This document shows positions 5,229 to 32,454 of a stretch of DNA of 64,000 nt, piece after piece. The stretch's first letter is position 1. Each line of letters opens with the position of its first letter. Under the pieces are notes generated by a model. It ran no database searches and had not been told where the DNA came from. It saw only the letters and a program-made list of their open reading frames with translations. A program made the position numbers and the translations under genes. Origin of the DNA: Gimesia benthica (GTDB lineage Bacteria; Planctomycetota; Planctomycetia; Planctomycetales; Planctomycetaceae); the NCBI RefSeq assembly GCF_009720525.1, contig NZ_CP043930.1:7886001-7950000 (forward strand), given 5' to 3'.

Positions 5229-5276
5229 GGTTAACACACTCAAAAACGCCCGACCAGTCCCAGGACGGAGACGTTG

Positions 5277-9141: not shown

Positions 9142-10767
9142 ATGGAACAAATGACAAAATCAAATCGACTGATCGAACGCGTACAGCGTCGCCTGGCTTT
9201 GGCGGTCTGGGGGCGTGCACTCTTTGTGTCATTTGTAATCTCTGCATCCTTGTACCTGGCGCTGATGCTCTTCAGCCGGTTGACCGGCTACTGGACCGGC
9301 TGGTTTCCACTGGAGTCCATCAGCAGTGTCGCCATCGGTACGCTGGTGCTGTCAGCGATTCTGTTTCGCCGGCCCGATCGCGAACAGGCGGCCCGCCTGA
9401 TCGATCAGCGGCAGGGAACCAAGGATCTGTTTCTGACGGTGATGATGCTGGAACAGGCCGTCGGCAACTATAAGCCCCTGGTCGCGCAAGACGCAGAAAA
9501 GCAGGCCCAGAAAATCAAACCAGCCCAGGTCGTAGAATTTGCCTGGGCTAAACGGGTGGGCTGGGTCTGTGCATCCACACTGGTTCTGTTTCTGACACTG
9601 CAATACGCGCCGCAACTCGATCCCTTCGGTGAAGTACAGGCTGCGGAAATCGAACAGGAAAAGGTCAAGGAGTTCCAGAAAGAGAAAAAAGCAACAAAGG
9701 CCCGCATGGCTGAGTTGAAGAACAAAGATAACGGTGCAGGCGACGAAGAGTCCAAAGATGTCAAACTGGCGGTGGAGAATCTGAAATCAGACTTCCGCAA
9801 GATGACTCCCGGCAAAAAACAGGAAAATGCCAAGACCCTGGCTGGTCACCAGAAGTCCCTGGGAGGCAAGTGGCGGCAGCGCGCCGAAGAGAATATGAAA
9901 AGCATGATGATGAAAGCAGACCAGGCCCAGAAATTTGGTGGCATGTCGAAAGATGACGGCATGAAGAAGTGGTCTAAGGAGCTGCAGGAGGGTTCGACTC
10001 AGTCACTCACCAAAGAGATGGATGAATTGAAAGATCAGCTGCAACGGCTGATGAAAGAAAAAGACCCGGTCAAACGGGAAAAACTGCAGAACGAAATTCA
10101 GAAGAAACTCAAAGAGATGGAATCATTCGCCCGGGAACAGACTTCTTCCAAGCCGATGGCAGCAGCGTTGAAGCGAGCCATGAAACAGATGCAGATGGCG
10201 CAGTCCAAGGGGCTTTCTCCCGAAGAGGCTTTCAAAGAAGCCATGGAGTCCATGGACCTGGCAAAAATGGAACTCAAAGAAGTAGCCCAGTCGGCCAAGG
10301 ACATGAAAAAGCTGGAAGAAGCGCTGAAAGTTCTACAGATGGCCAAAAAGGCAAACGACAAATCAGGCCTCGACGGTGAAGCCTGTGAAAACTGTATGAC
10401 CCTCGAAGATTACGAAGAACTCTATGCAGAAATGATGGGGGGAGAAATGCCCGGTGAAGGGACCGGCAATGAAGGACAGGGCGGTGGAGGCAAAGTCGAT
10501 GAAGACGACACGGGTGATAAAGGTTTTAAAACCGAAAAGTCCAAGTCGGCCATCACTGCTGGTAAGGTCCTGCTTTCTTTCAAATCCAAGGGGCTCAGCG
10601 ACAGTGGCGAAGCCAAGAAGAACTACAACAAGCTGGTCACGGATCTCAAGCAGGGCATGAGCGAAGCCATTATGCAGGAGCAGATCCCGCCCGGGTATCA
10701 CGACGGCATCAAGAAGTATTTCAACTCACTCGAGAAAAAAACTGACGAGAATACACCTCAGAAATGA
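9142..10767 (+). CDS. Membrane-anchored coiled-coil protein, DUF4175-like
   Basis: The protein has 541 residues. An AAGGAG ribosome site lies 7 bases before the ATG at 9142, the clearest one in this cluster. Two N-terminal hydrophobic segments (about 23-45 and 55-72) and a third near 135-152 precede a long lysine/glutamate-rich coiled coil (about 170-430) with repeated KEM and KELK heptads. A glycine/acidic linker (about 433-465) follows, and the C-terminal end carries EQIPPGYHDGIKKYF. The sequence DREQAARLIDQRQGTKDLFLT resembles the N-terminal part of DUF4175-type proteins that occur near MoxR/VWA clusters; that assignment is tentative. The gene overlaps the next one by ATGA, tying it to the importer. 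Confidence 0.75.
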   Translation: MEQMTKSNRLIERVQRRLALAVWGRALFVSFVISASLYLALMLFSRLTGYWTGWFPLESISSVAIGTLVLSAILFRRPDREQAARLIDQRQGTKDLFLTVMMLEQAVGNYKPLVAQDAEKQAQKIKPAQVVEFAWAKRVGWVCASTLVLFLTLQYAPQLDPFGEVQAAEIEQEKVKEFQKEKKATKARMAELKNKDNGAGDEESKDVKLAVENLKSDFRKMTPGKKQENAKTLAGHQKSLGGKWRQRAEENMKSMMMKADQAQKFGGMSKDDGMKKWSKELQEGSTQSLTKEMDELKDQLQRLMKEKDPVKREKLQNEIQKKLKEMESFAREQTSSKPMAAALKRAMKQMQMAQSKGLSPEEAFKEAMESMDLAKMELKEVAQSAKDMKKLEEALKVLQMAKKANDKSGLDGEACENCMTLEDYEELYAEMMGGEMPGEGTGNEGQGGGGKVDEDDTGDKGFKTEKSKSAITAGKVLLSFKSKGLSDSGEAKKNYNKLVTDLKQGMSEAIMQEQIPPGYHDGIKKYFNSLEKKTDENTPQK

Positions 10768-11807
10768 ATGAACAAATCAGGCCCCAGGGTGCTCCCGGCT
10801 GGCTTACCTTAATCATCATTCTAATGCTGGCCCTGTTGGGAATTGGAGTCGTCTTCTATTACCAGAAGCAGACAGATCCATTGGTTGTGTATTGCGCACA
10901 TGACTCCATCTTTTCGGAAAAAATACTCAACGAATTCATGGCGGAGACAGGCATCGCCGTCGAACCCCGGTTCGATACCGAAGCGACTAAATCTCTCGGC
11001 CTGACAAATCTGATCATACGGGAACAGGAGCATCCCCAGTGCGATGTTTTCTGGAATAATCAGACGCTGGGTACCGCGGATCTGAAATCCCGGGGACTGC
11101 TGGAAAGTTACAAAGGTTCCGGGTACGAACGAATCCCTGAGTCATTCAAAGATCCGGAAGGCTGCTGGACCGGTTTCGCAGCCCGTCTGCGGGTTTTGAT
11201 TACCAATACAAATCAGCTGCAGGCTGACACAGTCGCCATCCAAAAAGTTCTGGCGGGGCCGTTGGATCAGGTCGCGATTGCCAAACCCCTGTATGGGACG
11301 ACGCTCACTCATTTCACCATCCTCTGTGATGTCTGGGGACTGGATCAACTCAAAGCCTGGTATGCGGAACAACTCAAGCGGGGCATACAGGTCACGACCG
11401 GAAATTCTCAAGTTAAGAACCTCGTCGCCGGCGGCGCCTGCGTACTGGGCTATACAGACACGGATGACTATTTTGTCGCCGTCGATGAACAACAGCCGGT
11501 AGCTGCCGTCCCCGTGACGGTCGAGAACAAAGTGATTCTGATTCCCAACAGCGTGGCGATCATAAAAGGAACTCAAAAAAGGGAGCAGGCCGAGAAACTG
11601 GTCGATTTTCTGCTCTCGGAGCGGGTTGAACTGGAACTGGCCCGCTCGCAGTCACGCCAGATCCCCCTGGGGCCGGTCGACTGGGAGCAGGTTCCGAAAG
11701 AAGTGAAACAGTATCGGTCTGAGATCGGAAAAGCATATCCCCTGACGAATCTGGTCAAACAAAGAGAGCAGACGCTGGACTGGCTCAAGACGGAGTATTT
11801 GAAATGA
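10764..11807 (+). CDS. ABC importer substrate-binding protein, Fe(III)/FbpA-like
   Basis: The protein has 347 residues. ATG at 10764 overlaps the preceding TGA as ATGA. An uncleaved-looking N-terminal membrane anchor (about 13-32, LTLIIILMLALLGIGVVFYY) is followed by a type II periplasmic binding fold: VVYCAHDSIFSEKIL, CDVFWNNQT, and a second lobe with GYTDTDDYF and ILIPNSVAIIKGT. This layout matches the FbpA/SBP_bac_6 family, which binds ferric iron, thiamine or phosphonates; which ligand applies here cannot be read. It is followed by its permease (ATGA overlap) and ATPase. Confidence 0.85.
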   Translation: MNEQIRPQGAPGWLTLIIILMLALLGIGVVFYYQKQTDPLVVYCAHDSIFSEKILNEFMAETGIAVEPRFDTEATKSLGLTNLIIREQEHPQCDVFWNNQTLGTADLKSRGLLESYKGSGYERIPESFKDPEGCWTGFAARLRVLITNTNQLQADTVAIQKVLAGPLDQVAIAKPLYGTTLTHFTILCDVWGLDQLKAWYAEQLKRGIQVTTGNSQVKNLVAGGACVLGYTDTDDYFVAVDEQQPVAAVPVTVENKVILIPNSVAIIKGTQKREQAEKLVDFLLSERVELELARSQSRQIPLGPVDWEQVPKEVKQYRSEIGKAYPLTNLVKQREQTLDWLKTEYLK

Positions 11808-13258
11808 GCCTGGCCACTGCCTGTGGCGTGACCGTGTTGCGCAGTTTATGTATTTCATTCATTGGAGTCTTTTTAGCCCGGCGGTTAACCCCGCCAACCC
11901 GGAAAGCTTTTGAATCTCGTGCCTGGTTTCAGTTAATTCTGATTTTATCACCATTATTTGTTCCTGAACTCCTGGTGGGTTATGCCTGGTCTCTGATTTC
12001 TGTCAGATTCGTGCAGTATCCTGCCCTGGTCGAACTGACATACTCAACACTGGTTTTGATGAAAGTGGTCCCTGTGGGAATACTCTGTTTCAGTATGGCA
12101 GGGGGAGCGTTAATCTCTCTCGAAGCGGATTTCATCCGACGCGTTTTTCGCGCGCCGGGTTCGCGACTGGCCAGCCTGAAGACCCGAGCCAGCTTTTTTC
12201 TCTGGAAGTCCCTGCGATTGTGGATCCCCATCTGGACGCTGTTATTTCTGTTGAGTTTTCAGGAATTTGAAATGGCCTCGCTGATGTACCGCGATTCCTG
12301 GACCGTCTGGATCTTTGATGCTCAGGCGGGGGGCGTTCCCGTGCAGGAGACACTCTCATTTCTACTGGGGCCTCTCGTCATTGAAGTCGTCATCCTGCTG
12401 GGGGTCTTCAGCCTGTTGCAGCGGTTTCAGAGAGAGACCAGAAAAGTGAATGCGACTGAAACGCCAGCTCCCACTCTTCAGAAAGCGAAGCTCTGGGACT
12501 GGGGTTACCTGGGGGCCGCTTTTGCCCTGGTCGTGCTGGTTCCCTTTCTCTTAATCAGTGGTGGGAGTTTGCAGTCATTGCTGAATCTGCTCCAGAATCA
12601 GTATCAGCTCATCAGCATTTTACAGGAGTGTGCCTGGGCGCTGGCTTACTCAGCGACAACCGGTATTGCCGCCTGGGGACTGGCCTCATTCTTTTTAAAA
12701 CAGGATTCCACCGTATTCACCCGACTGACGGGCCTCTTGTGCTGTCTGCCTGGTTTGTGTGGTGCACTGATCCTCGCTCTTGGGCTGGCATCTCTGTTTC
12801 TCACCCGCGCCGGCTCAGTCATGTATGGCACTCCGATTCCGGTTCTGCTGGCGTTTGTGTTGTTTCTGTTTCCCCGCGCTCTGTTCCTGCGGCTGATGTT
12901 CCTCAAACGAGAACAGCACGCCGGCCTGTTTCTGGCACAGATACTTCGTCAGTCCCCGCGGCACTCTCAAGCCGGGCAGGGGGGCGAATTGCTCTGGGCC
13001 GTCTCGGGAAGAATGCAATTCTGGGCCGTGGCTCTGCTGGCATTCTGGGCTTACTGGGATGTCACGATCAGCTCAATACTCGCTCCCGGCAGCACGATGA
13101 CTTCAGCTGTTCGTCTATACGGACTGATGCATTACGGACAGAACGCAATGTTGTCCGCGATCACCTTTTTCTGTTTTCTGTTGCCGGTCTGCCTCTGTCT
13201 GGGACTTGTTCCTATTGTGAAACGATTCTGGATCGCCAGCTATCGCGTGCCTGTCTGA
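11804..13258 (+). CDS. ABC importer permease, FbpB-like
   Basis: The protein has 484 residues; ATG at 11804 overlaps the TGA of the binding protein gene. It is hydrophobic throughout, with about twelve predicted membrane segments in two halves separated by a charged loop around residues 205-228 (QRFQRETRKVNATETPAP). This is the two-domain layout of FbpB/ThiP-type permeases, where one polypeptide supplies both halves of the pore. The canonical EAA loops are poorly conserved by eye. Eighteen bases separate its stop from the ATPase start. It should form an inner-membrane import pore with the flanking genes. Confidence 0.82.
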   Translation: MSLATACGVTVLRSLCISFIGVFLARRLTPPTRKAFESRAWFQLILILSPLFVPELLVGYAWSLISVRFVQYPALVELTYSTLVLMKVVPVGILCFSMAGGALISLEADFIRRVFRAPGSRLASLKTRASFFLWKSLRLWIPIWTLLFLLSFQEFEMASLMYRDSWTVWIFDAQAGGVPVQETLSFLLGPLVIEVVILLGVFSLLQRFQRETRKVNATETPAPTLQKAKLWDWGYLGAAFALVVLVPFLLISGGSLQSLLNLLQNQYQLISILQECAWALAYSATTGIAAWGLASFFLKQDSTVFTRLTGLLCCLPGLCGALILALGLASLFLTRAGSVMYGTPIPVLLAFVLFLFPRALFLRLMFLKREQHAGLFLAQILRQSPRHSQAGQGGELLWAVSGRMQFWAVALLAFWAYWDVTISSILAPGSTMTSAVRLYGLMHYGQNAMLSAITFFCFLLPVCLCLGLVPIVKRFWIASYRVPV

Positions 13259-13276
13259 AAGTAAAAAAGATCAACG

Positions 13277-15118
13277 ATGGTCGTAACGGCTCCCCAATCT
13301 GAAACTCTTCTCTGGCGACTGACCGATGTCAGCCTGTCCTGGCAGCGGGGCGTACGCCTGGAAGGCATCGACCTGGAAATTCCAGCCGGGGTGACCGCCA
13401 TCATGGGGTATTCCGGTGCAGGCAAGACCTCTCTGTTAAACCTGCTGGTCGGCTTTGAACGCCCTGATCGGGGAGACATTCAACGCAATCAAACGCACTC
13501 GAAATCCCCAACCCTCGACCTGTTTTGGGTACCCCACAGCATGGGCCTCTGGCCTCAGTACACGGTCCGCGAGCATTGTATTCTGGTCAGCCCGGAATCA
13601 GATCAACAACAGGCACGAGCCGATGAACTGCTTGCCGCCTTCGGGTTAACCGAAGTGAGTGATAAATACCCCGGGCAGTTATCCCAGGGGGAAGCGTCCC
13701 GACTTTCGGTTGTCCGGGCCCTGGCCAGTCAGGCGAAAGTCCTGGTGATGGATGAGCCACTGGTCCACGTCGATCAGGCGCACTGGCCCCAGTATTGGGA
13801 TTTCATTCGTGCGTATTGTGACTCTCACAGTATTTCACTTGTATTTTCGACGCATTCTCCCGAGCTGGTACTGCGCGAAGCACAACAGGTCATCTGCCTG
13901 GATCAGGGACAGGTTATCTATCATGGTCCAGTCGAAGAACTTTACCGCTCGTCCCCCTCGGTGAAGGCGGCTTCATTTCTGGGGCCCGTGAATGAAATCG
14001 ATTCGCCCGGGGATACCTCCGACTTACCCACACTGGCTCGTCCCGAACAGGTGGAATTGATCACTGACTCTGCCGGTCCGTTCGAAATTATACAGACTTA
14101 CTTTCTCGGAACCATGGAAGAAGTTCGTACCGTCAACCGGGAAACCGGAGCAGCGCATACTTTTTATCATCGACCTGCGCGAGCAGTACTGGAAGTGGGA
14201 CAGCGGATTTCCATTCGACTGCTGATTCTTTTCTGCTGTCTGCTCTTGAGCGGAGGCTGTATTCCCGGGGATGCGCCTGAGTTATCTTTCTCTGACATTT
14301 CTCAGTGGACTGTTCCCGCGGAAGGTATCAAAGTCCCGGCGCCGCGCAGTCTGAATGTGGGGCCTGACGATGAACTCTACGTCCTGGATAACGCAGGACG
14401 GGTCCTGGTCTATGATGCGAATGATGAATTGATCAAACAGTGGGAGATGCCTGATTTTGAAATCGGCAAGCCGGAAGGGGTCTGTCTGCTCAGAAATGGT
14501 GAGATCGCGGTTGCGGATACCCACTATCATCGCGTCGTCTTCTTTGACAAAGAAGGAAAAGTACTTCGCATGCTGGGAGAATATGGTGAAGGTCCTTCCC
14601 AGTTTATCTACCCGGTGTCTGTGGTGCAGGATCCGGAGGGAGATATTTACGTCTGCGAATATGGGAATCACGACCGCGTTCAGAAGTTCTCGGAAACGGG
14701 CGAGTATCTGCTCGAATTCGGTAAGGTGGGGACCGGACCGGGGGAATTTCAGCGACCGGCGGGAATGATCTGGCATGATCACAAAATTTATGTCTCGGAT
14801 GCAATCAATAATCGGGTTCAGATTTTCTCCGATGAAGGTGAGTTTCTGGAAATTCTGGGAGCAAAAACCGGGGGAATTCCCCTCTATTACCCCTATGACA
14901 TCGCCATCGACCGCAATACCAGCGAATTGTATATCGTGGAATACGGATCGGGACGGATTACCAAAACAGACCTGCAGGGAAATATCCTGGGGCGATTTGG
15001 AAAAACAGGGATGCAGCAGGGAGAATTCCTGACTCCCTGGGGACTGACAGTAAATTCAAAAGATCAGGTATTCGTGGCTGACACCGGAAATCGTTTAATC
15101 GTAAAATTGACACCATGA
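13277..15118 (+). CDS. ABC importer ATPase (FbpC-like) fused to an NHL-repeat lipoprotein-like domain
   Basis: The protein has 613 residues in one uninterrupted frame from ATG 13277. Residues 1-235 are an ABC ATPase: Walker A GYSGAGKT at 44-51, signature LSQGE at 135-139, Walker B VLVMDE at 155-160 and H-loop H193. Residues about 253-315 look like a TOBE-type tail (RPEQVELI, LEVGQRISIRL). A hydrophobic stretch with the lipobox-like LSGGC (Cys 328) follows, then about six NHL repeats to the end (GEIAVADTHYHRVVFF, NHDRVQKF, NNRVQIFS, GNRLIVKL). An ATPase normally ends where the lipobox begins, so two complete genes seem fused in frame. Separate translation from an internal GTG (for example 14195) cannot be excluded. 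The next gene overlaps by ATGA. Confidence 0.85.
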   Translation: MVVTAPQSETLLWRLTDVSLSWQRGVRLEGIDLEIPAGVTAIMGYSGAGKTSLLNLLVGFERPDRGDIQRNQTHSKSPTLDLFWVPHSMGLWPQYTVREHCILVSPESDQQQARADELLAAFGLTEVSDKYPGQLSQGEASRLSVVRALASQAKVLVMDEPLVHVDQAHWPQYWDFIRAYCDSHSISLVFSTHSPELVLREAQQVICLDQGQVIYHGPVEELYRSSPSVKAASFLGPVNEIDSPGDTSDLPTLARPEQVELITDSAGPFEIIQTYFLGTMEEVRTVNRETGAAHTFYHRPARAVLEVGQRISIRLLILFCCLLLSGGCIPGDAPELSFSDISQWTVPAEGIKVPAPRSLNVGPDDELYVLDNAGRVLVYDANDELIKQWEMPDFEIGKPEGVCLLRNGEIAVADTHYHRVVFFDKEGKVLRMLGEYGEGPSQFIYPVSVVQDPEGDIYVCEYGNHDRVQKFSETGEYLLEFGKVGTGPGEFQRPAGMIWHDHKIYVSDAINNRVQIFSDEGEFLEILGAKTGGIPLYYPYDIAIDRNTSELYIVEYGSGRITKTDLQGNILGRFGKTGMQQGEFLTPWGLTVNSKDQVFVADTGNRLIVKLTP

Positions 15119-18100
15119 AAATCAAAGAACTCTACCAACAGTTAGTTCCCAGAGCACGCACACCGGTGACGTGGCGGCGGGCGCTCCCTTTGATTTTCTT
15201 CCTGTTACTCTACGCCGGACTTTGTGTGGGCCTCGAACTTTCGGGAGTTCTGCTCTTTGCCCGGCCGTGGGCATTCGTGCTGATTCTCTTCGCGGTCTGG
15301 GTCTGGTGGCTCTCTGTCGCCGGTTATGGCGGACTGAGCAATGGCAGGGCACAGGCTGCGCTGCTGACACGACTGGTGATGCTGGGACTGTTTGTGATCC
15401 TGATTGCAGAGCCACGCTCCGTTCGAGTACGGGATGTGATCTCGGTGGTCTACGCCGTGGATCTATCCGATTCGATCGGCGAAGGGGCCGTTGACGACGC
15501 ACTGGAATTCGTTACGAAAACGGTCACCGAAAAACCGCCCATGGATGAAGCAGGTCTCGTTGTCTTCGGGAGAAATTCGGCTGTCGAACTGCCGCCCCGC
15601 ATGTCGTTCCCGTTTGAAGCATTGAATTCGCGTATCGATCGGGATGCGACCAATCTCGAGCAGACTCTGTCACTCGCCGCTGCCATGCTGCCTGAAGAAA
15701 ACCGCGGGCGCATCGTATTGATCAGCGATGGCACCGAAACCGAAGGCTCCATTTCACAGATTCTGGATGAGCTGAAATCCCGCGATATTGCCGTGGATGT
15801 GTTACCGATTCAATATGAATATGACAAAGAAGTCTGGCTGGAAAATCTGGAATTGCCACGGTTCGTCAAACTGGGCGAAAACTATGAAGCATCCGTGGTA
15901 CTCTCTTCGCTGCAGGATGGTGCGGGTAAGCTGGTGCTGCGTGAGAACGGAGAACAGATTTACGAACAGGAAGTCAAATTCAAAGCCGGCAAAAATCGAT
16001 TTGTCGTCCCCATCTACCTGCGTGATCCCGGCTACTACGAGTATTCTGCGACAATCGAAACCCAGGCCGCCGATGACCAGATCCGCGAAAACAATACCGT
16101 CATCAATTACATCTATGTCGAAGGTGAAGGCAAAGTTCTCGTTGTGACGAATCCGGCCGGTGATGACCGGGACTGGGAGTCGCTGGTGAAAGCGATTCGC
16201 GAAGGGGAACGCAATGTCGATGTCGTTTCGGCTTATGAATTTCCGAATGACTCGCTCTCACTGATGCCTTATGACGCGGTCTTATTTGTAAACGTACCCG
16301 CTGATGCGTTTAATGTCATTCAGCTCAAGGCCGTCCACGACTCCGTCTTCAACCAGGGCATCGGCTTTATGATGGTCGGCGGAGACAACAGTTTTGGCCC
16401 GGGAGGCTATCACCGTACGGTCATTGAAGACGCGTTGCCCGTCACGATGGACATCACCAAAAAGAAAGTACTGCCTAAAGGCGCGCTGGCAATTATTCTG
16501 CATACCTGCGAGTTTCCGGAGGGGAACACCTGGGGGAAACGGATTACCAAGCAGGCGATTAAGGTACTGGGTGCTCAGGATGAAGTCGGGGTTCTGGTTT
16601 ACGATTACATGGAGGGCGAAAAGTGGCTGTTCAAGCTGACGCCCGCCGGCGACTATGAGAAAATGGTTCCCAAGATCAATGGCGCGCAAATCGGCGATAT
16701 GCCCAGCTTTGTCAACACGATGCGTCTGGGACTGAAGGGGTTGAAAGAAAGCGATGCCTCCGCCAAACACATGATCATCATCTCAGATGGAGATCCTCAG
16801 CCCCCCGCACCGCAGCTGATCAGTGAGTTTCAGAAGAATAAAGTCAGCGTTTCGATGGTCGCCATCTTCCCGCATGGCGGACGTGATATTTCGACGATGC
16901 GGGCCATCGCGGGCGCCACCGGAGGCCGGTATTACTTCCCCTCCGATCCCAACCAGTTACCTTCGATCTTCATCAAAGAATCGAAAACGCTGAAACGGAG
17001 CATGATTCAGAATGAAACGTTCGTGCCGGAAGTCGGAATGATCTCTCCAGTCTTGAAAGGCATTGAGCGGATTCCACCTCTGTTCGGTTATGTATTGACC
17101 ACGATCAAACCACGGGCAGAAGGCGTCTTAAACGCACCGGAGAAGAAAGAGGCCGAAGGGGAAATTGATCCTGTGCTGTCCTTCTGGCGTTATGGACTGG
17201 GAACGACGGCCGCCTTTACTTCAGACCTCTCACCCAACTGGGGGAAAGACTGGGTCAACTGGGATCATTACCAGGCGTTTGTCAAACAGCTGATGATCAA
17301 GATCTCGCGTGTGCAGAAACAGGATCATCTGAAACTGTGGAGCCATGTTACAGGTAATAAAGCAACCATTATGGTGGAAGACTTTCACCCGGAAGAATCG
17401 TTTCTGAATGTGGCAGCCCGGATAGCAGGCCCCCATGATCGGAAAGAGACCGTGGTACTCAAGCAGGTCAGCCCCCGTCGCTACCAGGCTGAGGTGCCTC
17501 TCTGGGGTAAGGGGCGATACCAGGTCACGGCTCTCGGAAAATCGGGGGAACGGGAAGATCACGCCAACGGTGGTTTCATTGTACCTTACTCACCAGAATT
17601 CCTGCGGTTCCGTTCGAATCCCATCGTATTGGAAGAAATTGCACAACGAACCGGCGGGCAACGACTGGATCCCGCGAATGCAACGGACATTATTTACGGT
17701 CGACGCGATCCCAAACAGAGTTCCAACCCGGTTTTCGACTGGTTTCTGATGGCACTGGCAATCCTGGTTCCTCTGGACGTTGCCATCCGTCGGGTACAGC
17801 TTGACTGGTACGTCATCAAGGGCTGGTTTGGGTTCGGGAAGGAACAGAAGCAGAGCACCGTTACGATGGGCGCACTGCTGAAACGCAAACAGGATGTGGT
17901 GGACGATCTGGATGCCCGCCGCGGTGGTCCGACCGAACAAACCGGCCAGTCGACACTCGCGCAACTACAGGAGCAACGTCTGCAGAAGGGGCCTTCAGCC
18001 ACTCCGAAGCCCCCCGGGGCAAAGGATTCCGGAAAACAGCAGTCGGCACCACCTCCGCCGCAAACGCCACCGGATAATAAGTCCACGACAGGGCGTTTAC

Positions 18101-18150
18101 TGGACATGAAACGAAAACGAAATTCAGAAGACAAAGATAACGAACAGTAA
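15115..18150 (+). CDS. Large membrane protein with two VWA domains and a glutamine-amidotransferase-like domain
   Basis: The protein has 1011 residues, with ATG overlapping the previous TGA. Three N-terminal membrane helices (about 24-42, 50-68 and 82-98) precede a VWA domain whose metal site is intact (VDLSDSIG, D116/S118/S120). A class I glutamine-amidotransferase-like Rossmann region lies at about 340-450 (VLVVTNPAGDDRDW, VGGDNSFGPGGY), without an evident catalytic Cys-His pair. A second VWA-like domain at about 470-630 lacks DxSxS (IILHTCEF) but keeps IIISDGD. One helix near 870-890 and a proline/glutamine-rich cytoplasmic tail finish the protein. This layout is common in planctomycete MoxR clusters; the MoxR gene follows after 30 bases. 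It is probably a surface or periplasmic assembly factor whose metal-dependent VWA is remodelled by MoxR (inference). Confidence 0.85.
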   Translation: MKIKELYQQLVPRARTPVTWRRALPLIFFLLLYAGLCVGLELSGVLLFARPWAFVLILFAVWVWWLSVAGYGGLSNGRAQAALLTRLVMLGLFVILIAEPRSVRVRDVISVVYAVDLSDSIGEGAVDDALEFVTKTVTEKPPMDEAGLVVFGRNSAVELPPRMSFPFEALNSRIDRDATNLEQTLSLAAAMLPEENRGRIVLISDGTETEGSISQILDELKSRDIAVDVLPIQYEYDKEVWLENLELPRFVKLGENYEASVVLSSLQDGAGKLVLRENGEQIYEQEVKFKAGKNRFVVPIYLRDPGYYEYSATIETQAADDQIRENNTVINYIYVEGEGKVLVVTNPAGDDRDWESLVKAIREGERNVDVVSAYEFPNDSLSLMPYDAVLFVNVPADAFNVIQLKAVHDSVFNQGIGFMMVGGDNSFGPGGYHRTVIEDALPVTMDITKKKVLPKGALAIILHTCEFPEGNTWGKRITKQAIKVLGAQDEVGVLVYDYMEGEKWLFKLTPAGDYEKMVPKINGAQIGDMPSFVNTMRLGLKGLKESDASAKHMIIISDGDPQPPAPQLISEFQKNKVSVSMVAIFPHGGRDISTMRAIAGATGGRYYFPSDPNQLPSIFIKESKTLKRSMIQNETFVPEVGMISPVLKGIERIPPLFGYVLTTIKPRAEGVLNAPEKKEAEGEIDPVLSFWRYGLGTTAAFTSDLSPNWGKDWVNWDHYQAFVKQLMIKISRVQKQDHLKLWSHVTGNKATIMVEDFHPEESFLNVAARIAGPHDRKETVVLKQVSPRRYQAEVPLWGKGRYQVTALGKSGEREDHANGGFIVPYSPEFLRFRSNPIVLEEIAQRTGGQRLDPANATDIIYGRRDPKQSSNPVFDWFLMALAILVPLDVAIRRVQLDWYVIKGWFGFGKEQKQSTVTMGALLKRKQDVVDDLDARRGGPTEQTGQSTLAQLQEQRLQKGPSATPKPPGAKDSGKQQSAPPPPQTPPDNKSTTGRLLDMKRKRNSEDKDNEQ

Positions 18151-18180
18151 TCAGACAGGTTTTCAACCGTGGAGAATAAT

Positions 18181-19197
<1,017 letters not shown>

Positions 19198-19203
19198 CAG
19201 ACC

Positions 19204-21989: not shown

Positions 21990-22017
21990 AAAAACGTCCT
22001 CAGCCTGAAATCGAACC

Positions 22018-24210: not shown

Positions 24211-24231
24211 CAGAAGTGTGAATTGAATACT

Positions 24232-25179
24232 ATGAGCATACAGCCTCCAATGGTGGAAGTGAAAAATCTGTGGGTTCGCTACGGTAAATACGAAGCCGTC
24301 AAAGGGATCTCATTTACGATTCCTAAAGGCGAAGTCTTCGGTTTCATCGGCCCCAATGGTGCCGGGAAATCATCCACGATTAAAGTACTGGCAACGCTGC
24401 AACGGGAGTATGAATGCGACGCAGTCAAAATCAACGGAGTTTCTGTGCATAAAGCACCGCATCTGATCCGCGAGATGATCGGCTACATGCCCGATTTCTT
24501 CGGCGTGTATGAAGACCTGACCGCCCGCGAGTATCTGCACTTTTTCGCCGCCGCCTATCGCATAAATCGCAGCCGTCGCAAAGCAATTGTTGACGACGTT
24601 CTGGAATTGACCGATCTGACGGCGAAGATTGACTCGCCCGTTGACTCTCTGTCGCGCGGAATGAAACAGCGGCTGGCCCTGGCACGCGTCCTGCTGCACG
24701 ACCCTGACCTGCTGCTGTTGGATGAACCAGCCAGTGGCCTGGATCCCAGGGCACGAATTGAGGTCCGCGAACTTCTGGTCGCCCTCAAAGAGATGGGGAA
24801 GACGATCATCATCTCCAGCCATATTCTGCACGAACTATCGCAGCTTTGTACGAGTATCGGCATCATTGAGGCAGGTCAGTTTGTCACCCAGGGATCTCTG
24901 GATCAGATTTATAAACGGCTTGAGCTCAGCCGGGTCATTCACGTGCAGATTGTCGGTGAGATGAACGGGATCTGTCAGCAGATCGAACAATTCGAAGGGG
25001 TCAAGTCCGTTTCCGTGCAGGCAGACCGCCTGGCAATTCAACTGCAGGAAGACCAGATGGCCGTCGATGAGTTGCACGCCCGACTGGCTGCGACGGGGGC
25101 CCGAATCCGCATGTTCCAGGCGGAAGCCATGGATATGGAAACGGTATTCATGAAGTTGACGGAGGGCAAGACGGCATGA
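24232..25179 (+). CDS. ABC-2 transporter ATPase, module 1
   Basis: The protein has 315 residues from ATG 24232; a TTG three codons upstream is less likely. Walker A GPNGAGKSS, signature LSRGMKQR, Walker B LLLLDEP and the switch segment ISSHILHEL are all intact, so it should hydrolyse ATP. The C-terminal 90 residues resemble the regulatory tail of NatA/GldA-type exporter ATPases. The permease gene starts inside its stop (ATGA at 25176). It is probably a cytoplasmic subunit of an export or lipid/protein-handling transporter; the substrate is unknown. Confidence 0.92.
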   Translation: MSIQPPMVEVKNLWVRYGKYEAVKGISFTIPKGEVFGFIGPNGAGKSSTIKVLATLQREYECDAVKINGVSVHKAPHLIREMIGYMPDFFGVYEDLTAREYLHFFAAAYRINRSRRKAIVDDVLELTDLTAKIDSPVDSLSRGMKQRLALARVLLHDPDLLLLDEPASGLDPRARIEVRELLVALKEMGKTIIISSHILHELSQLCTSIGIIEAGQFVTQGSLDQIYKRLELSRVIHVQIVGEMNGICQQIEQFEGVKSVSVQADRLAIQLQEDQMAVDELHARLAATGARIRMFQAEAMDMETVFMKLTEGKTA

Positions 25180-27071
25180 AATCCAGAGGATTCCAACTCG
25201 GGCTTCCGCTGCTCTCCAAAGAGCTGACAGAACTGGCCAACCGCCGTAGAACCTATATCATCCGCACCATTTATGCGCTGCTGTTCCTCGGTTTTGTCGG
25301 TTTTATTTATATCGATCTGATGTCGGGACTTCAAAATAACCCGATGGCCATTCTGGGGCGGGGACGTGACATCTTTGAGGCGATGGTCTATCTGCAGTTT
25401 ACCGCCATTTATCTCTTCCTGCCCGCGATTTCCTGTAGCGTGATCACCCACGAAAAAGAGCGCAACAGTCTGGGACTGTTGCTGATTACCAGGCTGAGTC
25501 CCGGGACCATCATTCTCGAAAAATACCTGGGCCGATTAATTACGATGCTCACATTCCTGACCCTGGGGCTACCAATTCTGGCTTTTGCCTATGCCCTGGG
25601 TGGGGTTTCACCGGCGATGTTTATCAGCGGGATCTGGTTTCTGCTCATGACAATGCTGCAGGTCGCCGCTTTAGGCGTGCTCTGTTCCAGTTTCTTTCGC
25701 AGCACTGTGGGGGCCTTTATTGCGACCTATGTGTTCGGCTTTTTCATGCTGTTTGGACCGATTATCGTCTACGAACTGAATTTGTTTTATTACCGGGAAC
25801 TGTTTAACCTTTTTACTCAGGTACTGCAAAATATCCCGGTTTTGGGTAATCTGCTGGGAAACTGGGGACGCTCGTCTGAGTTGAACCTGTTCCTGTTCGG
25901 ACCTTACCTGTTCGATCTGTGTTCCCGTACGACTGGTATCTCCGCGATCCTGGGGCCACTCCTGATGAGTATTCCCATGCTGACTGTCACGCTGATGTTT
26001 CTGATTATGGCCCACTATTTTCTCGTGCGACGTGCCTTCCTGACGCCACGAAATCTGCTGTTGAACATGTTCAAGAAGCTGGACTCTCAGTTCAGTAAAA
26101 TCAATGACAATCGCGTGACACGGGGTATCGTACTGGTGCAGGATGATGTGAAACTGCCCGAGAATGATCCCATCGCCTGGAGGGAAACCTCCAAGAAATC
26201 ACTGGGCACGTTTCGTTATCTGTTTCGCATCCTGGTCGCGCTGGAAGTCCCCATTCTGTTTTTGTGTATCTTGATTGCCACCGGTAGTCCGGAACCGGTG
26301 GTCCCCGGGGCGGTCATGTTGCTGTGGGGTGTCTGGATCCTGACAACGCTGCTGCTCGCGGTTTCAGCCACCAGTCTGATTGCAGGAGAGCGGTCTCACG
26401 AAACACTTGATGTGCTGCTCACGGCGCCTCTTTCGGGTAGAGAAATCCTCAGACAGAAAATTGCCGGCGTCAAAAGGCTCTGTCTGGTACTGTTGATTCC
26501 CCTGCTGACCATCGTGTTATTTGAAACCTGGTGGAAAATGGAGTATCACCTGGCCGGCTATTCCTATTCGTCTTACCGTCACTCGAATTACTCGACACGC
26601 TGGTTCGCTTACTTTACCGGTTCGATGCTGACGATTTCGATCTACCTGCCGATGTTGATTTATCTTTTCTGCTGGATCGGGATGAAAATCAAATCCCAGA
26701 CGAAAGCCATCCTGACGTCTCTGGGGGGCGTCATTCTCTGGTGTCTGTCCCCGTTCATCCTGGCGTTTCCCCTCTTTGTATTAAATCCCTCAATGAATGA
26801 AGATTCAGTGATCTACGGCGTTCTACTGGGACCGGCTTCTTTTATCGTGGTGAATGAAATCGCTGAATTTCATGAATTCGGTTCGATCTGGATTCCTCTC
26901 ATCCTTAATTCCCTGATCTATGGCTGCCTATGTTTCTGGTTTCGCCACTTGTGTCTCGGGCACATTGATGAGAGACTGGGGCGGTTAGGGGACACACCTG
27001 AACAGGATTATGTTCCTCCCGCACCCCCGAGTAATTCGAAACCAGTATTGAGTTCTCCCCTGGAAGGATAG
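25176..27071 (+). CDS. ABC-2 type permease, module 1
   Basis: The protein has 631 residues; ATG overlaps the ATPase TGA. Two hydrophobic halves of about six helices each are separated by a soluble stretch at about 295-340 (NMFKKLDSQFSKINDN, LPENDPIAWRETSKKS). Both halves carry the ABC-2 pattern of an amphipathic lead (SCSVITHEKERNSLGLL; AGERSHETLDVLLT), as in GldF/NosY-like permeases; the doubled layout suggests one polypeptide forms the whole pore. The C-terminus is proline-rich (VPPAPPSNSKP) and probably cytoplasmic. The next gene starts 3 bases after the stop. Confidence 0.9.
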   Translation: MKSRGFQLGLPLLSKELTELANRRRTYIIRTIYALLFLGFVGFIYIDLMSGLQNNPMAILGRGRDIFEAMVYLQFTAIYLFLPAISCSVITHEKERNSLGLLLITRLSPGTIILEKYLGRLITMLTFLTLGLPILAFAYALGGVSPAMFISGIWFLLMTMLQVAALGVLCSSFFRSTVGAFIATYVFGFFMLFGPIIVYELNLFYYRELFNLFTQVLQNIPVLGNLLGNWGRSSELNLFLFGPYLFDLCSRTTGISAILGPLLMSIPMLTVTLMFLIMAHYFLVRRAFLTPRNLLLNMFKKLDSQFSKINDNRVTRGIVLVQDDVKLPENDPIAWRETSKKSLGTFRYLFRILVALEVPILFLCILIATGSPEPVVPGAVMLLWGVWILTTLLLAVSATSLIAGERSHETLDVLLTAPLSGREILRQKIAGVKRLCLVLLIPLLTIVLFETWWKMEYHLAGYSYSSYRHSNYSTRWFAYFTGSMLTISIYLPMLIYLFCWIGMKIKSQTKAILTSLGGVILWCLSPFILAFPLFVLNPSMNEDSVIYGVLLGPASFIVVNEIAEFHEFGSIWIPLILNSLIYGCLCFWFRHLCLGHIDERLGRLGDTPEQDYVPPAPPSNSKPVLSSPLEG

Positions 27072-27074
27072 AAT

Positions 27075-28967
27075 GTGACGAGGATGTTCCGAACGTATCT
27101 GGACTACAAAATTATTAACCAGCTGCTGCTCTTCATGCTGTTGATGTTGCCTTCCGCTGTTTATGCGATTGATGTCGAGGAGACTATCTGGGGATTCAAT
27201 AACCAACCAGTTCGGGGAAAATTTGTCCCGCTCTCTCTGCGTTTAAGCAATAATACTCCCGAGGTCTTCGACGAAGCAGTCCAGTTGAATCGTCAGCAAT
27301 TTAATGGAACAAAAGTCGGCGCGCCACTGTATAAAAAAGTCTATCTACCGCCTTACAGCTCCCAGTGGGTCCAGTTCTATCCTTATATCGTCGATGGTCA
27401 GGATGAAGACTGGAGTCTGAACTGGGGCCCCGGCTTTGTACAATATCGCAGCGTCAAACGAACCGGAGGTACCGCCACCACGACCGGGCCTCTGCGGATT
27501 ATCATCGCCGGAAGCGATGGCCTCCTCCAGGGGGGAGCCAGCTTTAAGAAATACCCGGAAGACCTGTTTCCTCCGTTTGTGACCGCGACGGATTCATTGG
27601 ATGAAGTCATTCTGGGGCATGTGCCACGCTGGGATGTGGCCCGTCGAGTCTCGTTCATGGACTGGCTGGAGCAGGGGGGCATTCTGCATCTGCTTCCCAA
27701 CCCCAGTGGCGAGAGTTTGAAATTTACATCGAACTTAGCCCCCCTGAATGCCCCCTTCGATCATTTTCGCGTCGGTGCGGGACTGGTGATCCGCCACAAT
27801 TCAAAGTTGAATCAACTGAAAGCGACGACTCTTGATGAACGGATCCAGGCCGTCCGCGACAGCGACGCAAAGTCGTTAGGCATTTATGCTGCTGCTCCCC
27901 TGGCGAAGGAATCCCAGTCCAGCGGAGAGAACTATGATCCTTACCAGTATGGGGACATCAACTCTGGGTTTCTCTACCAGTTATCCGAACTGACCCGCCC
28001 CACTCATAACTGGGCGGTGATTTATATTATGACATTATTCTATATATTTCTGATCTTTCCCGGCTGTTATCTGTTCCAGCATCGAAAAAATATGATGCGG
28101 TATCGCAATTCTCTCCTGTTTCTACTCGTTACCGTAAGCGTATTCAGCATTATCTTCTGGACCATCGGGAAACGCGGCTACGGAGAAAAAACCACAATTA
28201 ACAGCGTGCTGCTGGCAAAACCACTCCCCGACAATCAGCTGGACCTGACCTGTTGGATGAACTGCTTCGTCACTGAGGGGGACGATTACCAGTTTACGGA
28301 AGACGGTGAAGGTGCCATTTTTTCAACAGCGCAAGTCATCGAACGGGTTCGTGGCGGGATTTTCAATGGCAACGACGGCAGGTTCGTCTCCGACATTCCA
28401 CCCTTTTCAAGCCGCCGGATGATATACCGGATCAAAGCCCCCTATACGTCCCCCCGGTTTTCTGTGCAGGATTATGAAATCGACATGGAAAACGGGAACG
28501 TGATTCTCAAACAGCTGACCCTCAAATCAGAAACGCCACTTCCCCCCGGGCTGAATCACAGGCAACTCATCCTCGGAAAATATGTCTATAATTTGATTCC
28601 CTCATCCGGTGAAAATCCGAGCGAATTATCGTTGGGCAAAAGTCGGGAGCTGCTTTCAGCCTGGAACAGACACCTCGATTCGGATCTGCTGTATGCTTCA
28701 CGGCTCAGGACCGCAAATTCTGATGAAGATATTGAGCAGGTCTATGACGGCCTAGGTACGCACTTGATATTAAAAGATCTCGGTCTGCTCAGTTCCGAAA
28801 AGCTGCAACAGTACCAGGGTAACTCATCGCGTCTGCAGCTCTTCCTGTACGGCGAGATTCCGGAAACACTCAAAGTAAAAACCAACGTGCAGGGAACACA
28901 GCAGGGACGTATTCTCTTCGCCTATAATCTCGCCTTACCCGAGAAAAAGAATTTAACCAATGATTAA
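27075..28967 (+). CDS. Exported two-helix membrane protein, module 2 of a Gld-like ABC system
   Basis: The protein has 630 residues from GTG 27075, with AAGGA 6 bases upstream; ATG 27084 is the alternative. A signal peptide ends near SAVYA-ID. An extracytoplasmic domain (with HVPRWDVARRVSFMDWLEQGG) is followed by helices at about 311-333 and 345-366, then a C-terminal extracytoplasmic domain. Topology and genomic setting mirror the 730-residue protein at 22018. No catalytic motif is seen. It overlaps the following ATPase gene by 8 bases. Confidence 0.78.
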   Translation: MTRMFRTYLDYKIINQLLLFMLLMLPSAVYAIDVEETIWGFNNQPVRGKFVPLSLRLSNNTPEVFDEAVQLNRQQFNGTKVGAPLYKKVYLPPYSSQWVQFYPYIVDGQDEDWSLNWGPGFVQYRSVKRTGGTATTTGPLRIIIAGSDGLLQGGASFKKYPEDLFPPFVTATDSLDEVILGHVPRWDVARRVSFMDWLEQGGILHLLPNPSGESLKFTSNLAPLNAPFDHFRVGAGLVIRHNSKLNQLKATTLDERIQAVRDSDAKSLGIYAAAPLAKESQSSGENYDPYQYGDINSGFLYQLSELTRPTHNWAVIYIMTLFYIFLIFPGCYLFQHRKNMMRYRNSLLFLLVTVSVFSIIFWTIGKRGYGEKTTINSVLLAKPLPDNQLDLTCWMNCFVTEGDDYQFTEDGEGAIFSTAQVIERVRGGIFNGNDGRFVSDIPPFSSRRMIYRIKAPYTSPRFSVQDYEIDMENGNVILKQLTLKSETPLPPGLNHRQLILGKYVYNLIPSSGENPSELSLGKSRELLSAWNRHLDSDLLYASRLRTANSDEDIEQVYDGLGTHLILKDLGLLSSEKLQQYQGNSSRLQLFLYGEIPETLKVKTNVQGTQQGRILFAYNLALPEKKNLTND

Positions 28968-29922
28968 TGACCAACAGAATCATCCGCCTGTCATCAATAT
29001 TGAGAATGTCTCTCATTCCTTCAAAGGGCATCGTGCACTTCAGGGAATCAGTTTTCAGGTACACCCACAATCCCTGCATGGATTCGTAGGGCCGAATGGT
29101 GCCGGCAAGACGACAACACTCAAAATCATCTGCACGCTGCTGCAACCTCAGGCAGGCAAAGTCGCCGTTTTTGGGCATGATGTGCGTACTGCCGTCAAGG
29201 AGATTCGAAAGCGGATCGGCTTCATGCCGGATCATTTCAGTACCTACCGCCAGATGACTGTCTTTGAATATCTGGACTTCTTTGGGGCTGCTTATGGATT
29301 AAAGCAGGAACAGCGCGACCAGGTCATCAATGATGTGCTGACATTAACGGACATGGATGGCCGCAGAGATTCGCTGATCAGTGGACTGTCGCGGGGTATG
29401 CAGCAGCGGGTGAGTCTGGCACGGGTGCTAGTGAACGATCCCGACCTGCTCTTGTTAGACGAACCTGCTTCCGGCCTGGATCCCCGAGCCCGGATTGAGT
29501 TAATGGAAATTCTCCAGGAACTGAAGCGGATGGGCAAAACGATTTTCATCAGCTCTCATATCCTCAGTGAGCTCGCTGAGTTATGTGACAGCGTAACCAT
29601 TATCGACCGCGGGTTGATTAAATACAGTGGATCCATGGATGGTCTGCTGAATTATGAACAGGAACATCCCGTCTATAAGATCACCCTTGAATCGGAACCG
29701 GATGCGATTATCGCTGCTCTGGCGAATGAACCCGGTATCGTCAATGTCGAAAAGACACCCAAACCACGGGAAATGCGGGTGACCTTTGATATGACGATCC
29801 TCAATTCCAGTGCACTGCTTTCTAAAATCATTGCACTCAATGGAGTCATCGATTCCTTCCAGCGAGACAAGAAGCATTTGAACCAGGCATTTCTGGATCT
29901 CACAGAGCAGGGGGTACGCTGA
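28960..29922 (+). CDS. ABC-2 transporter ATPase, module 2
   Basis: The protein has 320 residues; ATG at 28960 overlaps the upstream gene by 8 bases. Walker A GPNGAGKTT, signature LSRGMQQR, Walker B LLLLDEP and the ISSHILSEL switch are intact. It is clearly related to the ATPase at 24232: shared blocks include GFMPDHF versus GYMPDFF and DEPASGLDPRARIE in both. The pair therefore looks like a module duplication. The permease ATG shares the final base of its stop. Confidence 0.92.
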   Translation: MINDQQNHPPVINIENVSHSFKGHRALQGISFQVHPQSLHGFVGPNGAGKTTTLKIICTLLQPQAGKVAVFGHDVRTAVKEIRKRIGFMPDHFSTYRQMTVFEYLDFFGAAYGLKQEQRDQVINDVLTLTDMDGRRDSLISGLSRGMQQRVSLARVLVNDPDLLLLDEPASGLDPRARIELMEILQELKRMGKTIFISSHILSELAELCDSVTIIDRGLIKYSGSMDGLLNYEQEHPVYKITLESEPDAIIAALANEPGIVNVEKTPKPREMRVTFDMTILNSSALLSKIIALNGVIDSFQRDKKHLNQAFLDLTEQGVR

Positions 29923-31475
29923 TGTTTCAGGGAACCTTTGCACTCTTTCACCGTGCGTTGGCAGTCGACTTTCGTCTGATGCGCACACATCTGTTTCGCT
30001 TCCTGTTTGCGATCCTGATTCTGTTCTGCCTCTTCTCCGCCCAGATGAGCAGTTCCATGATGGGGGCTGCTGGTCTGGCTTTGTTCGGACAGATCGTCTA
30101 TCTGAATTTTGTGTTTATCCTGATTGCAGGCATCAGCTTCTTCGCAACAGCGATCACCGAAGAAAAGGAAGAAGAGACCATCGGACTGCTATTGATGGCA
30201 GGGGTCAACCCGGTCTCTCTACTGCTGGGGAAAATGCTGCCCCGCCTGATTGCCGCCCTGTTACTGCTCTCGATTCAGTTCCCGTTTACGCTATTGGCAA
30301 TCACGCTCGGCGGCGTTATGTTCTCGCAGGTCCTTGCCGCCTATATCGCGCTGGCAGCCTTCCTGTTTCTGGTCGCGAACCTGGGCCTGTTGTGCTCTGT
30401 GATCAGCGCGCGTTCGCGGACGGCTTCCACCCTGGTCTTTATCGGCCTGGTTACGTACTTTCTGGGTGTCCCTCTGTTAGAACTGCTACGAACTGCGGCC
30501 ATCAATGAAAACTGGATCTCCGGAAATTTCTTCCCCGTGAAAGTCGCGGGGATCATTCTCGAATGGATCTACGATTCCTCAGTAATCAAACAGGTTACGA
30601 CCATCCTGTCGACCGGCTTCAACGAGACGGCCTGGGGATACCAGTTCTGGAGCAATTTGTTGTTTGGACTGTTCCTGTTTGGTCTGGCGAACTGGCTGTT
30701 CACCCGCTTTGCGTTGCTCGAACAGTCTTCTACTCCCGAACGCAGGCTCGTCGCAAAAAAGAAACGCAGTATGTTTTCCCCGGGGCGCGCCTGGCCTCAG
30801 GCACTGATGTGGAAAGACTTCTTTTTTGTCCACGGCGGCTATGGCATGAGCCTGATCAAATTCATTGCCTACGGAATGGCTTTGTTCTCTCTCTGTACTT
30901 TTTTTGGTTACACCACACGTAGCTATTCCATCCAGGAAATCGGAATGACGATGTTCTGGACCATGTTGATTGTTATTCTGATTGAAATCAGTCTGATCTC
31001 GGCGCGGATCTTCCATGTGGAAATCCAGTGGAAGACGCTGGTCTCCACGGCGATGCTCCCTGAGTCGATGGCGAAGATAGCATATACGAAAGTGCTGGGA
31101 TCTCTACTGAGTATCCTGCCGGCCTTCTTCTATCTGTCATTGGGCGTGTTATTCAGACTCAGGGAAATGCGCTACGATTCCGGTCTGGTTTTTGCCGAAC
31201 CCGGGTTCTGGATGATGTGTACCGAGATCCTGTTTTTCTGGCATTTGACGGCTTTTCTGTCCACCTACATTAAATGGGGCGCATTACCCCTTTCGTTCTT
31301 CACCATGTGGATGGGTAACACCTTTTTCTTTATTTCAGTCAGTTTACTTTCACTGGGAGCAGGGGCGCCTGATATGGATGGACTTTCCGTCGCGGTAACG
31401 TTTATGATGATGATTGGCATTATTGCTTTTCATTTTCTGATCAAAGAACGTTTGGTCCATCTGGCTTCACAATAA
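29922..31475 (+). CDS. ABC-2 type permease, module 2
   Basis: The protein has 517 residues; ATG overlaps the ATPase stop by one base (TGATG). About twelve hydrophobic segments lie in two halves around a soluble stretch near 265-300 (LLEQSSTPERRLVAKKKRS). The first half has the ABC-2 signature region TAITEEKEEETIGLLLMAG, parallel to the HEKERNSLGLLLITR of module 1. It completes the second ABC module. The C-terminal part lacks the proline-rich tail of the module 1 permease. A 34-base gap leads to the Tat-exported protein. Confidence 0.9.
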   Translation: MFQGTFALFHRALAVDFRLMRTHLFRFLFAILILFCLFSAQMSSSMMGAAGLALFGQIVYLNFVFILIAGISFFATAITEEKEEETIGLLLMAGVNPVSLLLGKMLPRLIAALLLLSIQFPFTLLAITLGGVMFSQVLAAYIALAAFLFLVANLGLLCSVISARSRTASTLVFIGLVTYFLGVPLLELLRTAAINENWISGNFFPVKVAGIILEWIYDSSVIKQVTTILSTGFNETAWGYQFWSNLLFGLFLFGLANWLFTRFALLEQSSTPERRLVAKKKRSMFSPGRAWPQALMWKDFFFVHGGYGMSLIKFIAYGMALFSLCTFFGYTTRSYSIQEIGMTMFWTMLIVILIEISLISARIFHVEIQWKTLVSTAMLPESMAKIAYTKVLGSLLSILPAFFYLSLGVLFRLREMRYDSGLVFAEPGFWMMCTEILFFWHLTAFLSTYIKWGALPLSFFTMWMGNTFFFISVSLLSLGAGAPDMDGLSVAVTFMMMIGIIAFHFLIKERLVHLASQ

Positions 31476-32407: not shown

Positions 32408-32454
32408 AAAAAACGGCTGGGAAGGAAATCATTTTTCTTCCCAGCCGTTTTACT
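32408..32454. terminator. Bidirectional intrinsic terminator between the TIM-barrel gene and leuB
   Basis: A 15-base-pair perfect inverted repeat (left arm 32410-32424, right arm 32437-32451; core ACGGCTGGGAAG) has a 12-base loop and A/T runs on both sides, so it can terminate transcription from both converging genes. Confidence 0.9.

Follow-up and report, generated by a model that had tools for sequence, protein, structure and literature searches.

The window analyzed here, a stretch of 64,000 nucleotides from Gimesia benthica (8.03-Mb contig NZ_CP043930.1), carries a compact gene cluster in which an importer resembling FbpABC, a MoxR-DUF58-von Willebrand factor A (VWA) set, and two ABC-2 modules stand together, and in which the importer ATPase is fused to a lipoprotein-type NHL propeller. 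Fourteen plus-strand open reading frames (ORFs) lie within positions 9142-31475, and every intergenic gap is at most 34 bases. The ORF coordinates bear out the kinds of overlap given in a preliminary description of the locus: ATGA overlaps of 4 bases lie at 10764, 11804, 15115, and 25176, a TGATG overlap of 1 base at 29922, and one of 8 bases at 28960. A further overlap, of 13 bases, lies at 20097. Genes are denoted below as D (DUF4175-like), S (solute-binding protein), P (permease), C (importer ATPase), N (NHL propeller), V (double-VWA protein), M (MoxR), F (DUF58), B (BatA-like), and E-A-T (ABC-2 module); regions, genomes, and contigs carry the numbered handles L, G, and C, respectively.

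What is most novel in the cluster is a lipobox located internally, where ATPase and propeller join. The fused gene C-N (13277..15118, plus strand) encodes 613 amino acids, resolved by Pfam and a predicted model into an ABC_tran domain, a TOBE-like part, a lipoprotein-type signal, and a six-bladed NHL propeller, in that order. The signal (amino acids 307-328; 14195..14260, plus strand, read from the DNA) ends in LSGGC, with the codon of Cys328 at 14258-14260, and residues 307-325 form a helix in the predicted model. By a simple rule rather than a trained predictor, the region follows the type II signal pattern of a hydrophobic stretch and then a lipobox-type Cys. With three truncated propellers set aside, all 17 ATPase-NHL fusions compared keep this Cys, the sole invariant one out of eight. 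In two other lineages, a propeller of this kind, likewise with a Cys, is joined to the permease rather than to the ATPase, and a lipobox-type Cys stands at the junction in 19/19 fusions of either kind. The permease-NHL fusions with an internal lipobox are encoded on the minus strand in L124 (13506-16160) and L146 (13558-16527). Unfused NHL relatives are mostly lipoprotein-like and usually lie just before the double-VWA gene. An internal start yielding the propeller as a separate translation product was considered and rejected: start codons before the signal vary between genomes, and codons -45 to -15 contain none in L075. Also rejected as importer parts were ATPase ORFs of 711 to 796 amino acids beside V in family f18, of which the one in L140, read by eye, resembles an ABCB-type exporter.

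Upstream of the fusion, S (10764..11807, plus strand) encodes a membrane-anchored solute-binding protein (SBP) of FbpA fold (SBP_bac_8, 3.9e-9) with a TDTDD motif, and P (11804..13258, plus strand) encodes a diverged FbpB-type permease recognized by its family profile only. Scanned alone, the window permease has no Pfam match at E<=1; the family profile matches the iron permease 9j4r (2e-14), and BPD_transp_1 is found in 3 of 17 members. The TDTDD motif aligns with the Tyr-Tyr stretch of ferric-binding relatives, Tyr-Tyr falling on D234-D235 in three of five alignments (7w3w, 8k7n, and 3wae) and its place being gapped or different in the remaining two. Of 22 SBP rows, 21 keep Asp-Asp (the diverged row is that of L162), and conservation does not extend to Y236 of the window protein. 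Neither these alignments nor the 22 rows contain, for the window SBP family, the Tyr-Tyr ferric dyad of FbpABC ferric importers; in FbpA, this dyad is the iron ligand. The importer is FbpABC-like in predicted fold, with a remote permease. With FbpABC-type iron importers it shares the SBP fold, a fused two-half permease, and an ABC ATPase with a TOBE-like end; it differs in having Asp-Asp for Tyr-Tyr, an anchored SBP, and an ATPase fused to a lipoprotein-type propeller. The FbpABC-like importer described earlier thus stands as far as the fold of SBP, permease, and ATPase goes, but its ATPase gene is an ATPase-propeller fusion and the ferric dyad is absent. An SBP profile search gave matches in 179 of 288 genomes, with one match at E<=1e-25 in the window genome. 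Twenty further regions, mainly away from V, were fetched; 19 have an SBP match, and all 19 SBPs keep the motif as TD[TS]DD. Away from V, importers of this family lie beside ChrB in L187 and L198 (two genomes of one family), L198 also having a major facilitator superfamily gene, and adjoin a cytochrome in L191; these neighbors are at most a possible hint to the substrate.

Downstream of the fusion, V (15115..18150, plus strand) encodes a membrane protein of 1011 residues in which Pfam and motif rows identify a VWA domain, a GATase1_like domain, and a second VWA-like domain, in agreement with its earlier reading as a double-VWA protein. The first VWA domain has DxSxS in 100/100 rows with letters there. 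In the second, H-T-C-E replaces DxSxS (residues 463-467; window 16501-16515); among relatives, the His is present in 80/101 (Asp in 21), the Cys in 70/94, the Glu in 83/94, and a distal Asp in 101/101, and the H-T-C-E residues could possibly form a different metal or catalytic site. Seven ORFs encoding very long V proteins (1321 to 1539 amino acids) were rejected as true fusions, since the extra N terminus has no membrane segment before approximately the V region and, by eye, resembles the upstream frame.

V is followed by M (18169..19197, plus strand), a MoxR AAA+ ATPase with its Walker motifs kept (AAA_3, 7e-63 and 210.8 bits; bpMoxR-type PF20030, 39.3 bits against a cut-off of 27), by F (19204..20109, plus strand), a DUF58 protein with no predicted membrane helix (DUF58, 1.4e-31; DxSxS, kept in 67/67 DUF58 proteins), and by B (20097..21989, plus strand), a BatA-like VWA membrane protein (VWA_2, 2.7e-15; BatA, 3.4e-11) whose motif keeps Asp in 68, the first Ser in 63, and the second Ser in 67 of 68 rows. 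Pfam (AAA_3, DUF58, and BatA N terminus plus VWA) and motifs confirm the MoxR, DUF58, and BatA-like VWA set that had been proposed; an AAA_3-type MoxR, a DUF58 protein, and a BatA-type VWA protein with a metal ion-dependent adhesion site (MIDAS) are features that the cluster shares with Bat-like operons. Thirteen MoxR-type (AAA_3) matches at E<=1e-20 occur in the window genome (G000). Judged by positive-charge patterns, B and V probably have their VWA domains outside the inner membrane, and F and M, the only proteins there lacking membrane helices, are probably inside. At the head of the cluster, D (9142..10767, plus strand) encodes N-terminal membrane helices and a Lys-rich coiled coil, as expected for the coiled-coil membrane protein first described; its match to DUF4175 (22.4 bits) is below the Pfam cut-off of 27.3.

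The cluster ends in two modules, each composed of an exported two-helix protein, an ABC ATPase, and an ABC-2 permease, and in this Pfam and predicted topology uphold the preliminary description. All six genes are on the plus strand. In the first module, E1 (22018..24210) has a weak DUF4350-like stretch below cut-off (E 0.054), and its profile matches 26 ORFs across the fetched regions; A1 (24223..25179), whose start codon is uncertain, matches ABC_tran (9e-28); and T1 (25176..27071) is GldF-like (4e-16). In the second, E2 (27075..28967) is assigned by topology and has no Pfam family over cut-off, A2 (28960..29922) is a Pfam-recognized ATPase, and T2 (29922..31475) matches ABC2_membrane_3 (4e-6; 26.6 bits, under the cut-off of 31.6). 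The second module looks to be partly duplicated from the first (22018-31475), because A1 and A2 are 40% identical, whereas E1 and E2 have no detectable relation; the comparison of the latter two, a shallow profile and one single sequence, gave nothing significant. In L036, only the second ABC-2 module follows BatA.

Conservation of the neighborhood was assessed in 100 regions of 94 genomes around V places. These were hand-picked among the matches listed and are non-random, being mostly the best V place per genome to about E 1e-83, with some on short contigs left out. Neighborhood profiles were built from the fetched regions themselves, and a recognized gene is one above a score threshold that we set. 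V has a match in at least 204 of 288 genomes, and ten loci with V relatives come from Gimesia, Planctomicrobium, Planctomyces, and metagenome-assembled genomes of Planctomycetaceae, Planctomycetales, and Planctomycetota. The full order D-S-P-C-N-V-M-F-B-E-A-T occurs in nine regions (L071-L075, L079, and L086-L088). A rearranged set, N-S-P-C-E-A-T-D-D-V-M-F-B, is found in L120 and L138, and L098 has D-S-P-C-N-V-M-F-B with E-A-T on the opposite strand.

Five regions with M-F-B before V were set aside from the order counts, leaving 95. At least 6 kb of upstream sequence was available in 69 of these, with N present in 46, D in 44, C and P in 27 each, and S in 24; where downstream sequence reached at least 4.3 kb (77 regions), M, F, and B were present in 55 each. 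Both flanks were adequate in 60 regions, and among the 42 with M downstream, N was found in 29, any importer gene in 23, and S plus P in 18. Of the 35 M regions whose flanks are long, 17 have A and T on one side. Counted as 43 family groups, the paralogous order included, the figures are 29 for N, 14 for any importer gene, 11 for S plus P, 31 for M, 13 for A plus T, and 31 for a D family match beside V, a profile that may catch other coiled coils (from one round to the next, the rows of the DUF4175 profile rose from 37 to 79, possibly including some). Where N lies upstream (59 regions), it is the recognized gene directly before V in 55. N-V is therefore the tightest pair; the importer is common without being constant, less than half of the usable regions carrying its genes. 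By comparison, 20 control regions (400 kb from nine genomes) contained no match to the NHL, SBP, permease, E1, E2, A1, BatA, DUF58, DUF4175, or double-VWA profiles, and the MoxR, importer ATPase, and T1 profiles matched in 1/20 each. Since the set recurs between regions, in rearranged orders too, against nearly nothing in the controls, the linkage of importer, MoxR-DUF58-VWA genes, and ABC-2 modules is beyond chance. Gene order across Planctomycetota, named in the preliminary description as a check, agrees with it: the modules are neighbors in distant members, and it is not the case that importer and ABC-2 modules are never near MoxR.

A paralogous M-F-B-V order occurs in L156, L164, L167, L169, and L170, with D in four of the five, and coexists with the main set in some genomes (G152 and G266). 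In the window genome, DUF4175-type and MoxR matches about 9 kb apart (G000:C1:110018-119545) may represent a second, paralogous set.

Beyond the cluster itself, two exported proteins are encoded upstream on the plus strand, a DUF1549/DUF1553 (PSCyt2/PSD1) protein (5775..7406; Pfam, 4e-44 and 1e-44) and an EF-hand protein (7410..9089; EF-hand_1, 1.5e-32), the latter gene also preceding the cluster in eight relatives (L032, L034, L036, and L071-L075). Three bases separate the two, and 52 bases then lead to 9142. Because the ORF at 873-5243 lies on the minus strand and diverges from 5775, and because gaps are short from there onward, the transcription unit may run from 5775, its possible first gene, to 32388 and comprise 17 genes. 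Fifteen genes had been claimed for 9142-31475; the close packing holds, with 14 genes in that interval, and the fifteenth (31510..32388, plus strand) is outside it. This gene, described as that of a Tat-exported barrel protein, does exist beside the cluster and encodes a xylose-isomerase-like TIM barrel (AP_endonuc_2, 7e-31) with a twin-arginine (Tat)-type signal whose TAT_signal match (1.9e-4; 21.6 bits) is just under the cut-off of 22.7. It is followed by a terminator-like hairpin of 19 pairs (32410..32451), by far the longest of 27 terminator-like sites in its scan. Such sites exceed those in shuffled sequence in both scans (27 versus 17.9, standard deviation [SD] 4.6; 23 versus 11.3, SD 3.8), so further terminators are possible. 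Promoter-like sites were no more frequent than in shuffles.

Both MoxR-DUF58-VWA operons and Gld-like ABC sets are already known. The Bat or MoxR-DUF58-VWA operons of Bacteroides, Francisella, and Riemerella likewise place MoxR, DUF58, and a BatA-type VWA membrane protein in one operon; the cluster adds the DUF4175-like protein, the double-VWA/GATase-like protein, the importer, the propeller, and the ABC-2 modules. One class of MoxR is described as occurring with DUF58, VWA, and TPR proteins (PMC11834572). No TPR family was among the Pfam matches at E<=1 for the 19 window proteins scanned, and the cluster is therefore not filed as a Bat operon proper. MoxR, VWA, and beta-propeller in one locus are also common to the MoxR-vWA-beta-propeller ternary systems, in which propeller and vWA protein form a single fusion (PMC7159879); the domain maps of the cluster contain no such fusion, the cluster-type propeller being free-standing or fused to importer subunits. 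Gld-type ABC-2 sets (GldA/F/G) similarly pair an ABC-2 ATPase and permease with an exported partner, but T1 finds GldF weakly (TIGR03518, 34.6 bits against the NCBIfam equivalog cut-off of 288.5), and no GldG match for E1 or E2 was found in Pfam or NCBIfam. DUF4175 is mentioned as part of AdvA in another paper (PMC7481262), a lead only. In the main text of two essential-gene papers (PMC10632474, on Planctopirus, and PMC12283558, on Verrucomicrobium), MoxR, von Willebrand, and DUF58 are absent as words, and no paper on the combination of importer, propeller, MoxR-DUF58-VWA, and ABC-2 genes was found in the open-licence literature.

We propose, with a probability of roughly 0.4, that the cluster encodes one inner-membrane/periplasm apparatus in which a lipid-anchored NHL propeller connects a MoxR-DUF58-BatA assembly core with a type I ABC importer. 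This propeller probably forms the physical link from the importer to the VWA/MoxR genes, given its predicted lipoprotein-type signal, its V-gene neighbor, and its fusion to the importer ATPase in one clade or to the permease in other lineages. Once in the membrane, the fusion would have its ATPase part inside and its propeller part outside; Lgt would lipidate Cys328, and LspA may cleave there, which would leave a membrane-tailed ATPase and a free lipid-anchored propeller. The propeller could then dock the importer onto the extracytoplasmic VWA/GATase-like protein V, while MoxR and DUF58 inside, with the BatA-like VWA protein across the membrane, might remodel or mature an envelope client. The ligand state or ATP use of the importer would gate or feed this remodeling step, and each ABC-2 module, together with its exported two-helix partner, may move or re-site envelope components. 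Tentatively, and less confidently than for the apparatus as a whole, a single precursor cut by type II signal peptidase at the internal lipobox might supply ATPase inside and propeller outside at 1:1 and so couple importer and MoxR/VWA machine, the arrangement having arisen separately on the permease.

Several observations weigh against this apparatus. In the permease-NHL genomes G278 and G251, comparison with the importer ATPase turned up no ortholog. The best importer-ATPase matches in G278, G251, and G270 are generic (84 to 85 bits, against 172 in G105 and 233 in G087), which favors a sensing or shared-ATPase role there. V has no other recognized gene in 9 of 100 regions, some of them on short contigs, and L080, L081, and L083 have E without a following A-T. 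Importer-side genes and V occur without MoxR in L076, L077, L084, and L085, and all four genomes have a BatA ortholog elsewhere (46 to 52% identical). In G087, S and P lie on contig C23 (L189) and C-N-V on C17 (L076). Other losses and separations equally suit a different and somewhat doubtful explanation, in which an ordinary uptake system, with the propeller as an extra receptor or scaffold, is cotranscribed with the MoxR and ABC-2 genes as all serve envelope growth. That this importer type can work by itself is indicated by 9 of the 19 SBP regions away from V, where S-P-C of this family occurs with no NHL gene; G081 has D-S-P-C-N without V on contig C51 (L190; 20,000 of 21,807 bases read) and V-M-F-B on C62 (L091); and 19 of the 42 MoxR-bearing regions with adequate flanks have no recognized importer gene upstream. 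Ordinary uptake fits poorly with an NHL gene directly before V even where no importer gene is recognized (L095, L097, and L106) and with a linkage that outlasts rearrangement in L120, L138, and L098. The earlier proposal of one envelope machine is thus borne out insofar as the modules are linked beyond chance, also when rearranged, and falls short insofar as they are separable.

The importer parts might instead transport nothing and act as a ligand-gated signaling device, through the propeller, to the VWA/MoxR core, in the manner of a kinase-TM-NHL sensor. In Mycobacterium PknD, an NHL propeller outside and an ATP-using domain inside are connected by one membrane segment. The layout around the PknD sensor domain (1rwl) is the same, but PknD has a kinase where the cluster has an ABC ATPase and a lipobox-type Cys at the junction. 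Such a device is improbable, as Walker A Lys, Walker B Asp-Glu, and H-loop His are kept in 37/37 importer ATPase rows, as in a working pump. Still less credible is a metal importer supplying the VWA (MIDAS) sites of the complex, the delivery first proposed: the SBP fold and permease are FbpA/FbpB-like and three MIDAS sites are conserved, but Asp-Asp stands in place of Tyr-Tyr, import would carry solute into the cell whereas both B and V are predicted to have their VWA domains outside, and MIDAS ions are normally Mg/Ca-type, not ferric.

MoxR-DUF58-VWA operons are widespread, and to our knowledge their clients and inputs are mostly unknown. A recurring lipoprotein-type propeller, fused to two importer subunits and placed beside the VWA gene, names a likely partner and a testable input for the MoxR-DUF58-VWA machine. 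If true, placing a lipoprotein signal internally, behind a cytoplasmic ATPase, would be an unusual route to two oppositely located proteins from one gene.

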